From positions 3,980,001 through 4,044,000 of the forward strand of contig NZ_AP017312.1 of the NCBI RefSeq assembly GCF_002355375.1: a stretch of DNA of 64,000 nt, read 5' to 3'. The position numbers were made by a program, and so were the translations under genes. The stretch's first letter is position 1, and every line of letters begins with the position of its first letter. Under the pieces are notes generated by a model. It was not told the DNA's origin, did no database searches, and was given only the letters and a program-made list of their open reading frames with translations. Shown piece by piece: positions 5,008-37,456 of this stretch. This DNA is from Aneurinibacillus soli (lineage in GTDB: Bacteria > Bacillota > Bacilli > Aneurinibacillales > Aneurinibacillaceae).

Positions 5008-5051
5008 TTATCTCCGCACGATATACCCTTTCTTATAGAATAGTTTGCAGT

Positions 5052-33603: not shown

Positions 33604-34155
33604 CTATATCACATCATCTGAATGCGCTGCATACACTGAGATCAACATCTTCCCCATTGTATCCCCTATGTTCACAACTCGATGAGGAATACAGGCTTTC
33701 CAATAGAAGCTATCCCCCGGTCCAACCACGAATTCATCCTCTCCCTGTTGAATAAGAAAAGTCCCCTCAAGTACCAGATGCGCTTCTTCCCCTTTATGAG
33801 CATGTGGTTCATCCCCGGTACCCACACCAGGTGGTGTATACGTAATCATCATACGGAGCCCATCCCGATTTTGTGGAGTGAGAAGTTCCACCCGGATCCC
33901 ATTCTTGCCAAACTCATGGATAATCCGTTCTTCTCTTCGTACTACTTTAACTGCCTGACTTGGCTCCAGTAACAAATAAGCAAGCGGTACATTAAGAAAA
34001 TCAGCAATCGTTTGCAATGTCGCAATCGACGGTGATGTTTTTCCGTTCTCAACCTGGCTAACGAATCCTTTGGACAATCCGGTTCCTTCACACATTTCTG
34101 CAATCGTAATCCGCTTGCGATTACGCAAGCTCCGAATATTTTCACCTATATTCAT
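33604..34155 (-). CDS. XRE-family regulator with C-terminal cupin
   Basis: A 183-residue regulator. The HTH_3 domain (about 6-62) contains TIAEMCEGTGLSKGFVSQVE and NGKTSPSIATLQTIADFLNV. The cupin_2 domain (about 105-175) has HAHKGEEAHLVLEG and PGDSFYWKACIPHRV. The double-stranded beta-helix probably binds a small ligand. It is divergent from the DODA-DoxX operon with 198 bp between, including a 12-bp inverted repeat, so it most likely controls that operon and itself (inference). Confidence 0.85.
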   Translation of the reverse strand: MNIGENIRSLRNRKRITIAEMCEGTGLSKGFVSQVENGKTSPSIATLQTIADFLNVPLAYLLLEPSQAVKVVRREERIIHEFGKNGIRVELLTPQNRDGLRMMITYTPPGVGTGDEPHAHKGEEAHLVLEGTFLIQQGEDEFVVGPGDSFYWKACIPHRVVNIGDTMGKMLISVYAAHSDDVI

Positions 34156-34207
34156 AATTTTTTCACCTCATACTTGACATATTACCACCATCGTGATAGT
34201 TTTTAAA

Positions 34208-34304
34208 TACAAAACATAGTTCACTTTAACAAAACCCGGATACGAAGAGATGATCCTTCCTCTCTTAACTATATACCGGATTTTCTTTCCCTTCTATGTT
34301 TTGT
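34208..34304. promoter_or_regulatory. Widely spaced 12-bp inverted repeat (operator candidate)
   Basis: TACAAAACATAG at 34208-34219 is the exact reverse complement of CTATGTTTTGTA at 34293-34304, 73 bp apart, in the space between the divergent regulator and dioxygenase genes. The arms could bind the XRE regulator with DNA looping. Confidence 0.55.
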
Positions 34305-34353
34305 AATACGAAACTTTAATTTATAAAATAAAACTCAAAAGGAGGTTATACGT

Positions 34354-35124
34354 ATGATGCCAGCCTTTTTTCTTGCACATGGAGCCCCTTCACTTGTTAT
34401 AGAGGAAAATTCCTATACAGAGTTTCTTAGCAAGCTAGTTGCTGAGCTTCCACGTCCCAAAGCGATTATCGTTTTCACTGCACACTGGGAATCAGATGTG
34501 CAACTCATCAGCAGTGCCCAAACACACCGCACGCTGTATGATTTCTCAGGATTTCCTGCCGAGATGTATGAGATGACATATCCAGCACCCGGTGATCCGG
34601 CACTTGCAGGGCGCATCGCAGAGCTGTTAGCTAGCCAAGGAATACCATCCCGTCAGGATGACGTGCGACCGCTTGACCACGGTGTGTGGGCACTGCTTAA
34701 GTTGATGTATCCGAATGCTGATATCCCGGTTGTTGCGATGTCAGTCAATCCGTTCCTGTCTCCTGCTGAACAGTATCGCATCGGGCAGGCACTTGCGCCG
34801 CTTCGCGATGAAGATGTTCTTATTATTGGCAGTGGCGGCACCGTTCACAACTTACGGCGTCTCCAATGGGGCGGTGGGCAACCTGAGCCATGGGCGATGG
34901 AGTTTGATCAGTGGGTTAATGAAAAGCTCGTCACATGGAATACGGAAGACATGTTCCGCTATGACGAACTCGCTCCACATGTGCGAGAAGCCGTTCCACG
35001 CAACGAACATTTCATCCCGCTTCTCCCGATCATGGGGGCAGGCGACCGTACGCGCCAGGCAACATTGCTGCACCAAGTATATCAATACGGTTCGCTTAGC
35101 TTAAGTGCTTGGAAATTTGATTAA
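34354..35124 (+). CDS. DODA-type extradiol dioxygenase (YgiD-like)
   Basis: A 256-residue class III extradiol ring-opening dioxygenase. Metal-ligand histidines lie in FLAHGAPSL (about 9), FTAHWES (about 47), LDHGVWALLKLMYP (about 110) and GTVHNLRRL (about 168). Bacterial relatives such as E. coli YgiD open the ring of DOPA-like catechols. AAGGAGG 9 bases before ATG. It is followed at 36 bp by a DoxX gene and then a tiny CDGSH-like gene: a probable three-gene operon dealing with catechols or quinones. Confidence 0.88.
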   Translation: MMPAFFLAHGAPSLVIEENSYTEFLSKLVAELPRPKAIIVFTAHWESDVQLISSAQTHRTLYDFSGFPAEMYEMTYPAPGDPALAGRIAELLASQGIPSRQDDVRPLDHGVWALLKLMYPNADIPVVAMSVNPFLSPAEQYRIGQALAPLRDEDVLIIGSGGTVHNLRRLQWGGGQPEPWAMEFDQWVNEKLVTWNTEDMFRYDELAPHVREAVPRNEHFIPLLPIMGAGDRTRQATLLHQVYQYGSLSLSAWKFD

Positions 35125-35160: not shown

Positions 35161-35571
35161 ATGACTAACAAAGACAAAGCATTATTTCTTGTGCAACTCA
35201 TTCTCGGATTTATTTTCTTCATGCACGGTCTCGGTAAATTCCAGGGAGGAATCAGCAACATCGCTGGCTGGTTTGCAAGCATCGGTCTTCCGGCCGGACT
35301 CGCTTACGTCGTAGCAACGATTGAATTGGTCGGTGGCTTGCTTATGATCGCAGGTCTCGGTACTCGCGTAGTCGCAGCCCTGTTCGCTGCTGTAATGGTA
35401 GGAGCAATCGCTACGGTCAAAGGTGCTGCCGGACTTATGGGTAACGGAACACAACCGGGTTATGAATTTGAGCTCGTACTGCTCGTAGTATCTGTATTCT
35501 TCGTACTGGCTGGCCCTTCCGCAATCTCGCTTGATCGCAAACTCTTCAAACGCGGACAAGAACAACAATAA
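35161..35571 (+). CDS. DoxX family membrane protein
   Basis: A 136-residue protein with four predicted helices (about 8-28, 45-68, 72-92 and 104-122). FFMHGLGKFQGGISNIAGWF and ELVGGLLMIAGLGTRVVA are typical of the DoxX/YphA family. These are often paired with dioxygenases or quinone/thiol stress genes. It follows the DODA gene by 36 bp with GGGGAG in front of the ATG. Function as quinone-linked partner is inference. Confidence 0.85.
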   Translation: MTNKDKALFLVQLILGFIFFMHGLGKFQGGISNIAGWFASIGLPAGLAYVVATIELVGGLLMIAGLGTRVVAALFAAVMVGAIATVKGAAGLMGNGTQPGYEFELVLLVVSVFFVLAGPSAISLDRKLFKRGQEQQ

Positions 35572-35607
35572 AGAAACACGCATGTGTATTGAAAGGAGGT
35601 GATCCGG

Positions 35608-35694
35608 ATGGCTGCTTGTGGTTGTGGACAAACTCAGAACCCGCAGGGACAATGCGATGGTTCACATGCAAATAAAAAAGAAGAAGCAAAATAA
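35608..35694 (+). CDS. 28-residue CDGSH-like mini-protein
   Basis: ATG 35608 follows a very strong AAAGGAGGTGAT site. The product reads MAACGCGQTQNPQGQCDGSH plus ANKKEEAK. The core CxCxxTxxxPxxCDGSH closely matches the CDGSH [2Fe-2S] motif (CxCxxS/TxxxPxCDGS/A/TH) with one extra residue before CDGSH. If folded it might bind an Fe-S cluster as an oligomer or small peptide. It is the third gene after DODA and DoxX and is followed by a strong terminator. The gene is shorter than usual annotation cut-offs. Confidence 0.75.
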   Translation: MAACGCGQTQNPQGQCDGSHANKKEEAK

Positions 35695-35697
35695 GCA

Positions 35698-35733
35698 AAA
35701 CGGGTGAGGCTATGTGGTCTCACCCGTTTTGCT
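35698..35733 (+). terminator. Terminator of the DODA-DoxX-CDGSH operon
   Basis: AAACGGGTGAG and CTCACCCGTTT form an 11-bp stem followed by TGCTT; the A run on the other side also serves the convergent minus-strand gene at 35747. Confidence 0.8.
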
Positions 35734-35746
35734 TATTCCTAGCATC

Positions 35747-36064
35747 TTACTCTTCCATACATTCCCTCGGTTTTCTAATGAATTCAAGTGTATCTTCCAG
35801 TTTTTTTAGCAAAAGCCACTCCTTCATTATAATCGTTTCCATAAGCTTCGTAACAGAACGATTCAATCTAATAATTTCGTGATTACTCGGACAAGTAGGG
35901 AAATCATGGCATTTCCCTACAAACGCTTGAACTTTACCAGCTTCCGCCCTGATAAGGTGAGCAAGCGCTTCTTCTTCGTGAGCGACAGATTCCATTAAAT
36001 CAAGTAATACGGTATGCAGTGATTGTCTCTCTTTATGTTTGCCTTCGAAGCATTCCTCTGACAT
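35747..36064 (-). CDS. Small helical protein, paralogue A
   Basis: A 105-residue, mostly helical protein. The core LMESVAHEEEALAHLIRAEAGK ends in KEWLLLKKLEDTLEFI and is shared with the protein at 37118-37456 (also FPTCP) and, twice, with the one at 36280-36834. Similar segments (SIALEELALAHIINAEGEKI-like) occur in surface- or spore-associated proteins of Bacilli, so a structural role in spore or cell envelope is possible but unproven. No signal peptide. Confidence 0.6.
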   Translation of the reverse strand: MSEECFEGKHKERQSLHTVLLDLMESVAHEEEALAHLIRAEAGKVQAFVGKCHDFPTCPSNHEIIRLNRSVTKLMETIIMKEWLLLKKLEDTLEFIRKPRECMEE

Positions 36065-36279: not shown

Positions 36280-36834
36280 ATGAGTAACGAAGAAAATCAA
36301 AATGAGGTTTTGCAACAAACTTCAACAGATGTCGGGGCCGCGTTAAATGCGATACTTGAGTCCATTGCATTTGAAGAACTACAGTTAGCCAGCATGATTA
36401 CTGCCGAGGCCAACAAAGTCCTTGCCACCGATGCAAACATCCTCCACTTACTCACCATAAACGCAAACGTAGAGCAACTGCTACGTACAATTGTCAAAAA
36501 GAATATCGTACTGGAAACAAAACTGCAGGATAACCTCGATGCTGCTACTGCTCTTAATCACAGTTTTGGTGTAAATTTAGCTGCTTTGCTTCCCGGGTTA
36601 GTTAGTGTATTAAACTCGATTGCTGCTGAAGAAACTGCGCTTGGCAAGTTAATCGGGGCGGAAGCTAATAAAATTAACAAGGCAATTACCGTTCCAGGGG
36701 TTTCTACGAATAATTTAGTTGATATAAACAATAGTGTGAACCGAACTCTCCGTACGATTATCAAAAAAGAAATTGTACTGGAAACGAAGATGCAGGATGT
36801 GCTTGACTTTATCGTGGGACATCTTAACACCTAA
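36280..36834 (+). CDS. Small helical protein with duplicated domain, paralogue B
   Basis: A 184-residue protein made of two copies of the same domain: ILESIAFEELQLASMITAEA to IVLETKLQDNLD (about 24-90), and VLNSIAAEETALGKLIGAEA to IVLETKMQDVLDFI (about 110-180). Each is a helix-turn-helix hairpin with the ESIAxEExxLxxxIxAEA pattern and an RTIxKKxIVLETKxQD second helix. GAAAGG 11 bases before ATG. No signal peptide. It is divergent from A and convergent with C/D. Internal duplication is plain. Confidence 0.65.
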   Translation: MSNEENQNEVLQQTSTDVGAALNAILESIAFEELQLASMITAEANKVLATDANILHLLTINANVEQLLRTIVKKNIVLETKLQDNLDAATALNHSFGVNLAALLPGLVSVLNSIAAEETALGKLIGAEANKINKAITVPGVSTNNLVDINNSVNRTLRTIIKKEIVLETKMQDVLDFIVGHLNT

Positions 36835-36888: not shown

Positions 36889-37118
36889 TATTTCAATGAT
36901 TTTAACAACGATCTTTTTCTTTCTATAATTCGTTTCATCTGATCCAGAGAACGAAGCATCACTTCTATGGAGTACATCTCATGCTTTTTCGAAAAATCCA
37001 GTTCATTTTCAGATGCCCGTTTTAGTTTGCGCACCGCTCTCGTATGCTGATCAATAGAACGTTCGGAAGCCAAAAGCGACTGCAGTAACTTCTCATTCAC
37101 TTTGCGCTCAACATCCAT
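36888..37118 (-). CDS. Small coiled-coil protein
   Basis: A 76-residue, highly charged, almost entirely helical protein (SERSIDQHTRAVRKLKRASE; MLRSLDQMKRIIERKRSLL). It overlaps the stop of the upstream gene (37118-37456) by 1 bp, so they are translationally coupled. It does not share the ESIAxEE motif of its neighbours. No family recognised; likely a binding partner of paralogue D. Confidence 0.55.
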   Translation of the reverse strand: MDVERKVNEKLLQSLLASERSIDQHTRAVRKLKRASENELDFSKKHEMYSIEVMLRSLDQMKRIIERKRSLLKSLK

Positions 37119-37456
37119 TACTCCTCATCCTCACAAAACGGGCGCTCAACAAATCGAATCGTATCCTCCAGCTTTTTGAGTAGCAGCCATTCCTTCATGA
37201 CTACCGCTTCAATCAACCGACTAACTTCCTGATTAAAATCAATAATTTGCTGGTTATGCGGACAAGTAGGAAAATTTTTCTTTTCTCCCACAAAAGCATG
37301 GATTTTATCCGCCTCGGCACAAACCAGTTTTGCAAGTGCAAATTCCTCATCCGCAATCGATTCCATCAGATGCAGAACGACTTCTCGCAAATGCAGTTTT
37401 TTATGGAAGATCGGTGCCAAATGTTCGAATTCTTCATCATGTGTATGGTCAGACAT
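37118..37456 (-). CDS. Small helical protein, paralogue D
   Basis: A 112-residue protein. LMESIADEEFALAKLVCAEA, FPTCPHNQQII and MKEWLLLKKLEDTIRFVERP align along the whole length with the protein at 35747-36064. The acidic N-terminus holds several His (MSDHTHDEEFEHL). It forms a two-gene unit with the coiled-coil gene. Envelope- or spore-associated role is possible by similarity to segments seen in such proteins; not shown here. Confidence 0.6.
   Translation of the reverse strand: MSDHTHDEEFEHLAPIFHKKLHLREVVLHLMESIADEEFALAKLVCAEADKIHAFVGEKKNFPTCPHNQQIIDFNQEVSRLIEAVVMKEWLLLKKLEDTIRFVERPFCEDEE

Follow-up and report, generated by a model that had tools for sequence, protein, structure and literature searches.

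The locus studied here raises the question of whether an open reading frame of 28 codons, located at positions 35608-35694 (plus strand) of a 64,000-nucleotide stretch of Aneurinibacillus soli DNA (hereafter the window), encodes a protein and, if so, whether that protein is a reduced CDGSH iron-sulfur domain, as an earlier note on this DNA had proposed. The frame, which extends from ATG to TAA and is termed mini hereafter, encodes a hydrophilic CDGSH-like peptide of 28 residues, MAACGCGQTQNPQGQCDGSHANKKEEAK, with the layout C-x-C-x2-T-x2-P-x3-C-DGSH, i.e. CxC-x9-CDGSH. It is preceded by a Shine-Dalgarno (SD) sequence, AAAGGAGGTGATCC (35592-35605, plus strand), that matches the anti-SD complement, i.e. 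that of the 16S tail, at 14 of 14 positions. No other place in the window shows such a match; a run of at least nine consecutive in-register matches was found elsewhere at a single place on both strands of the 64 kb, before LigB, with which the mini shares its operon, and the best run among 149 stop-to-stop frames of at least 100 codons was nine. The ribosome-binding site, which the note had ranked among the strongest in the window, is thus the only one of its kind there, and its strength suggests a high output of the mini gene. An upstream start at GTG 35599 was considered and rejected because the homologues described below begin at the same Met, encoded by the ATG, and differ in the residues preceding it.

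Searches with the peptide or its profile, which amounted to 1808 genome look-ups (overlaps counted), revealed 47 intact members, the window's included, of 24-36 residues and with 32 distinct sequences, from 46 genomes, which belong to 16 genera within the class of A. soli. The gene was present in two of the seven genomes of its own genus; among the 15 genomes of its own order, G009 contained a third full-length mini, and a fourth, partial match was attributed to chance. The order of G364 yielded 6 of 39 genomes, namely five of the 26 genomes of genus g28 (one copy being split) and G782. The orders of G017 and G027, both searched at an E value of 1e-6 that weaker members would escape, yielded 33 of 392 genomes (a stop interrupts the frame in one of them, and another has two copies) and 6 of 397 genomes, respectively. 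When a sample of the class was searched at E 0.01, 13 of 398 genomes matched, corresponding to seven intact minis, one split mini and five ordinary CDGSH or chance matches, and the window's own gene was the sole mini among the four matching genomes of a phylum sample of 398. Matches in 10 of the 82 genomes from the class of G599 lay in frames of 98-274 residues and were taken for ordinary CDGSH proteins, L033 being the only one read. Neither plasmids nor phages matched the peptide (tblastn), and the motif was absent from the flanks (up to 4 kb) of 36 DoxX relatives in named genomes. One of the genomes harboring a mini, G990, was recognized by its sequence as Paenibacillus sp. V4I3 (601 of 601 bases agree, at an identical position in the contig). 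No fitting family was found in Pfam, NCBIfam, PHROGs or the PDB sequences, with nothing relevant to the minis in NCBIfam and PHROGs; four fragments of family peptides had no match in paper texts, and such a peptide was described in none of the literature matches listed, a scope that leaves most subscription papers outside. The family of 24-36-residue peptides is widespread and apparently undescribed.

Two further copies were broken. In G266 (L040, 7064-8755) an insertion that carries a UPF0236 (PF06782) gene splits the mini, a short stretch being duplicated at its two borders, and in G912 (L144, around position 5008) a stop codon replaces the third Cys, the mini having apparently decayed. These two copies suggest that the mini gene is dispensable in those genomes.

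As to the conservation of the CDGSH positions in homologues, on which the earlier note had made its reading depend, the four ligands were found in an open frame in 47 of the 48 regions taken up (the exception being G912), and C, C, T, C, D, G, S/T and H were kept in all 44 distinct 51-nt cores, a ligand invariance that is partly built in because the search profile favours the ligands and the extraction pattern demanded C, C, C-D-G and H. Residues that the extraction pattern did not demand, namely the T, the two G and the S/T, were likewise invariant in 44 of 44 cores. A pair of these cores, which encode 29 core peptides, differs by 2.7 at the first codon position, 1.25 at the second and 8.7 at the third, a distribution that indicates strong selection on the peptide. 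In agreement with this, three g28 genomes with an identical peptide showed 3-4 synonymous and no nonsynonymous codon differences along codons 1-20. The start codon is ATG in 46 of the 47 members, TTG having been assigned in one, and an SD-like core (loose test) is present in all 47. That the frame arose by chance, or is a spurious one within a non-coding RNA, would be easy to reconcile with a length of merely 28 codons, but the codon-position signal with its third-position variation, the SD-like core of every member and the recurrence of the same start and motif in 16 genera speak against it and make it an extremely improbable explanation. The frame at 35608-35694 is a real, coding gene, and the ligands conserved across 16 genera bear out the note's claim of a very small gene. 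The possibility that it encodes a leader peptide of a downstream gene was rejected in view of the hairpin and T-rich tail located 3' of the mini in 28 of the 47 loci, the window included, a count from a simple scan that includes some weak cases and detected no such hairpin in 19 loci.

The nature of the encoded peptide can be assessed by comparison with ordinary CDGSH proteins. In Lin et al. (2011, PMC3174974), the motif is given as Phi1-C2-x-C4-xx-[ST]7-xxx-P11-Phi12-C13-D14-G15-[STA]16-H17, Phi1, P11 and Phi12 form a universally conserved dimer interface, the module needs a beta-sandwich that includes an N-strand and a P motif, and the smallest single-motif protein has 53 residues. The consensus C-x-C-x2-[ST]-x3-P-x-C, with eight residues between Cys2 and Cys3, appears in a second source (PMC5859297), and x8 spacing was present in ten of ten ordinary CDGSH motifs read. 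In contrast, Cys2 and Cys3 are separated by nine residues in 47 of 47 minis, the pattern having allowed 8-11 and the profile having been built on x9 members. As for the motif CxCxxTxxxPxxCDGSH read in the peptide by the note, its ligands stand, but its layout differs in one detail from that of the peptide, C-x-C-x2-T-x2-P-x3-C-DGSH, which has one residue more between Cys2 and Cys3 than the CDGSH consensus. Furthermore, all 47 minis carry K, Q, T or A at the place of Phi1, G at that of P11 and N, Q or S at that of Phi12; only 3-4 residues precede the first Cys, with no N-strand or P motif, and V, I, L, F, W and Y are all absent after the start in 29 of the 47.

What the minis share with the CISD/NEET proteins (PF09360; chains 3tbn, 3tbm and 3tbo) is the ligand order C-x-C...C-D-G-[ST]-H, the S/T after CxCxx and the D-G-[ST] ahead of the His. 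PF09360 was the sole Pfam match of the window peptide, with 14.7 bits against a gathering cut-off of 29.5 (E 0.038), and was matched weakly by five of the six members of set A3 (best E 0.019); searched against the window's whole genome it gave nothing at E 0.001, and the best solved chain among the PDB sequences matched a mini with E 0.27. These likenesses are what could be expected of a canonical CDGSH domain reduced to its minimum and dimerising, like mitoNEET, around a [2Fe-2S] cluster, but the minis differ from CISD proteins in their length (24-36 versus 53 residues), in the x9 instead of x8 spacing and the Gly at the P11 place of all 47, in the absence of a proline at C-2, of the hydrophobic dimer positions and of the N-strand and P motif, and in giving weak matches only, so that we consider such a domain very unlikely. 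The x9 spacing and the replaced dimer positions argue that the mini is no scaled-down version of the known dimer, for whose beta strands it has no room, and the note's proposal of a minimal version of that domain is not supported. Judged by sequence comparison, the ligands and the turn are kept in the minis, the makings of the known dimer are missing, and we do not class the mini as a CDGSH domain.

In the window, the mini comes third and last in a LigB-DoxX-mini operon whose genes all lie on the same strand. The first gene (34354-35124, plus strand) encodes a LigB-type extradiol ring-cleavage dioxygenase of 256 amino acids (PF02900, 1.3e-41), whose score against NF007914, 4,5-DOPA-extradiol-dioxygenase, was 219 bits, below the cut-off of 233, and the second one (35161-35571, plus strand) encodes a DoxX-family membrane protein of 136 amino acids (PF07681, 4.9e-19). 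A 16-bp hairpin followed by TTATTCCTA (35695-35741, plus strand) is a likely terminator closing the operon, as judged from the hairpin and its T-rich tail, and was absent from the list of a generic terminator scan. A divergent gene (33604-34155, minus strand) encodes a regulator with HTH_3 and Cupin_2 domains (Pfam, 1.3e-13 and 1.1e-15, respectively), and between this gene and the operon there is a 22-nt inverted repeat (arms at 34198-34219 and 34294-34315, 82% complementary and spaced by 74 nt) that may act as an operator. The -35 box of a promoter-like sequence, TTGTAA-17-TAAAAT (34301-34329, plus strand; 9/12 in a consensus scan only), sits within the right arm of the repeat; promoter-like sites found by consensus scan numbered 8 in the region versus 3.9 in shuffles. 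In G006, a cupin-HTH regulator gene adjoins the operon too, and a near-identical inverted repeat with equal arm length and spacing was found.

The operon of the window is flanked by genes for related small proteins at 35747-36064 (minus strand), 36280-36834 (plus strand) and 37118-37456 (minus strand), in which an LLESIAxEExALAHLxxAEAxKIQ-like segment is repeated. The products of the first two cluster together and with proteins of G006 and match no Pfam family above its cut-off, and the third was likened to them by eye.

To describe the surroundings of the whole family, we considered as categories HxlR or MarR regulators, DoxX, LigB, VOC dioxygenases, nitroreductases and azoreductase-like proteins, assigned by BLAST to representatives identified by Pfam. 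At least one such gene, of the kind involved in quinone and catechol detoxification, was located within 1 kb of the mini in 23 of the 47 loci, and category ORFs (at least 90 aa) represented 34 of 134 ORFs within 1 kb versus 8 of 353 at 1-6 kb, a comparison in which the categories and representatives were picked after inspection of these same loci, the denominators include spurious frames, and the window's own DoxX is missing because ORF picking preferred a longer frame on the opposite strand. Ten of the 23 positive loci belong to a single genus, g440 (that of G990), and carry the same nitroreductase; the 24 loci with no category gene within 1 kb include all four intact g28 loci. An HxlR or MarR gene was found within 1 kb in 9 of the 47 loci.

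According to Pfam, LigB is a neighbour of the mini in the window and G782; DoxX or DoxX_2 in the window, G859, G1234, G1236, G1258 and G1344; HxlR in G859, G866, G886 (2.9 kb away), G1234, G1236, G1258, G1344 and G1367; MarR in G009 and at the two loci of G852, one of which (G852b) also has a VOC dioxygenase and the other (G852a) a flavodoxin_2/azoreductase-like protein; and a nitroreductase in G866, G1344, G1367 and, within g440, G914 and G1004. BLAST added LigB and DoxX in G006, and nitroreductases at eight further g440 loci. The gene orders observed included LigB-DoxX-mini (window, G006), HxlR//DoxX-mini (G1236, G859), HxlR//mini-DoxX (G1234, G1258), HxlR//DoxX-nitroreductase-mini (G1344), HxlR//nitroreductase-mini (G1367), MarR-VOC dioxygenase-mini (G852b) and MarR-mini-flavodoxin_2 (G852a). 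The two minis of G852 (L118 and L128) thus each come with a MarR gene of their own. Unrelated neighbours according to Pfam were AP_endonuc_2 (G1008), a rotamase (G880), an SLH protein (G990), GDPD (G952), radical SAM/BATS (G1285) and diadenylate cyclase (G886), and none was identified in G970. The g28 minis adjoin a gene for a PLP enzyme of Cys/Met metabolism. The mini of G1285 (L156, 5063) lies 3' of the radical-SAM/BATS gene, which is preceded by a gene that looks thiG-like by eye, a sulfur-related setting outside the quinone pattern.

The upstream regions of the minis were also distinctive. Sites resembling the 7-1-7 Fur box, with the consensus TGATAATNATTATCA, were present at a score of at least 12/14 in 17 of 47 mini upstreams (shuffles, mean 0.13, maximum 2) and at a score of at least 11/14 in 28 of 47 (mean 1.43, maximum 6), whereas the upstream regions of control neighbours gave 3 and 7 of 302, respectively. 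The Zur consensus was found upstream of none of the 47 minis. The PerR consensus was found once at a score of at least 12 (shuffle mean 0.52) and in 13 of 47 at a score of at least 11 (mean 3.76, maximum 8), an excess to be expected in part from its likeness to the Fur consensus. A promoter with a TTTAC[AT]-like -35 box, a 17-bp spacer and a TATAAT-like -10 box precedes 24 of 47 minis versus 4 of 302 controls, and in 23 of the 24 a GTAAG follows the -35 box and creates an imperfect inverted repeat; these promoters and the Fur-like boxes come mostly from related genomes and are not independent observations. The g28 loci have a TTGTNT-17-TATAAT-like promoter of their own, as read by eye. In the operon of the window no Fur box was found, the best sites reaching 8/14 before the mini gene and 9/14 before LigB, and there is no HxlR or MarR regulator alongside but the HTH_3-cupin regulator instead.

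A similar combination of genes and control elements is known from Bacillus subtilis, where catDE (catechol 2,3-dioxygenase) is described in PMC6212828 as being under the joint control of Fur, CatR and YodB, and where YodB, CatR and MhqR govern quinone reductases, nitroreductases and dioxygenases (PMC6798810). About half of the mini loci resemble these regulons in their HxlR or MarR regulators, DoxX proteins, ring-cleaving dioxygenases and nitroreductases, and the Paenibacillus-group minis resemble catDE in having a Fur-type box and an inverted repeat at the promoter. CatD is itself a member of the DoxX family. In contrast, no such peptide is mentioned in the parts of those two sources available to us, and the operon of the window departs from the YodB-CatR-MhqR regulons in its cupin-HTH regulator and in being without a Fur box. 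The likeness to the CatR/YodB/MhqR regulons is the main clue to the function of the mini.

On these grounds, we propose that the mini may be a redox microprotein of quinone- and iron-stress operons that binds a metal, probably iron or Fe-S, and serves as a small redox or iron-handling partner of quinone- and catechol-detoxifying enzymes, a reading to which we give an even chance. Metal binding, the identity of the metal, the redox role, the partners and an induction by quinones or iron shortage are all parts of the proposal that we infer. The three Cys would form, together with the His (CxC-x9-CDG[ST]H), a metal site that most likely holds iron, perhaps as a [2Fe-2S] cluster, and the mini would act as an electron shuttle between flavin reductases and quinones. 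Alternatively, it might maintain ring-cleaving dioxygenases with their Fe(II) in the active state, a role for which XylT, the small [2Fe-2S] ferredoxin that reactivates catechol 2,3-dioxygenase, provides a precedent. In mitoNEET, the CDGSH cluster, which in its oxidised form has a band at 458 nm, accepts electrons from FMNH2 and hands them on to ubiquinone or oxygen (PMC9490426). The transfer from FMNH2 to ubiquinone fits the presence of flavin reductases as neighbours of the minis. Flavin-to-quinone electron transfer via a Cys3His site would then be common to both, as far as the role proposed for the mini goes, whereas mitoNEET is a membrane-anchored dimer with a folded domain and the mini comprises hardly more than the motif. 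The more specific version, in which a bare CDGSH-like loop, longer by one residue, acts as an Fe-S electron carrier in quinone and catechol detoxification under joint Fur-type and electrophile control, is put forward tentatively, as possible rather than probable.

Much of the same data could be accounted for if the mini were a metal buffer or a thiol scavenger, i.e. if it had a mononuclear, metallothionein-like Cys3His site for Zn, Cu or Fe, or thiols that trap electrophiles such as quinones, with no electron transfer. Three Cys and one His in a peptide nearly devoid of hydrophobic residues (those listed above being absent from 29 of 47), the high output suggested by the strong SD sequence and neighbours of the electrophile-stress kind are what this explanation would predict, but the T, the two G and the S/T kept in 44 of 44 cores go beyond the needs of a simple scavenger and D-G-[ST]-H is the signature of the CDGSH Fe-S site, and we regard it as a minority possibility that deserves consideration. 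It is also conceivable, and to our judgement unlikely, that the mini is a partner-binding or regulatory peptide that docks on DoxX, a flavin reductase or the HxlR/MarR regulator, its Cys/His site being structural or a redox switch. A peptide probably too small and polar for folding alone would suit such a role, as would the regulator genes within 1 kb in nine loci, but the partners vary among loci and 24 of the 47 have no category gene at that distance.

If the mini, as in the redox microprotein proposal, binds an Fe-S cluster, it would show that such a site can do with very little protein in vivo. If the bare-loop Fe-S reading were true, the minis would rank with the smallest Fe-S proteins found in nature and would be at odds with the view of the CDGSH module as an obligatory pair of beta-sandwich subunits. 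As a bare motif without the dimer, they bear on the origin of the CDGSH domain, and the 32 distinct peptides constitute a natural series short enough for chemical synthesis. For the organisms that carry it, the mini would then be a small, so far unseen part of a well-studied Gram-positive stress response.
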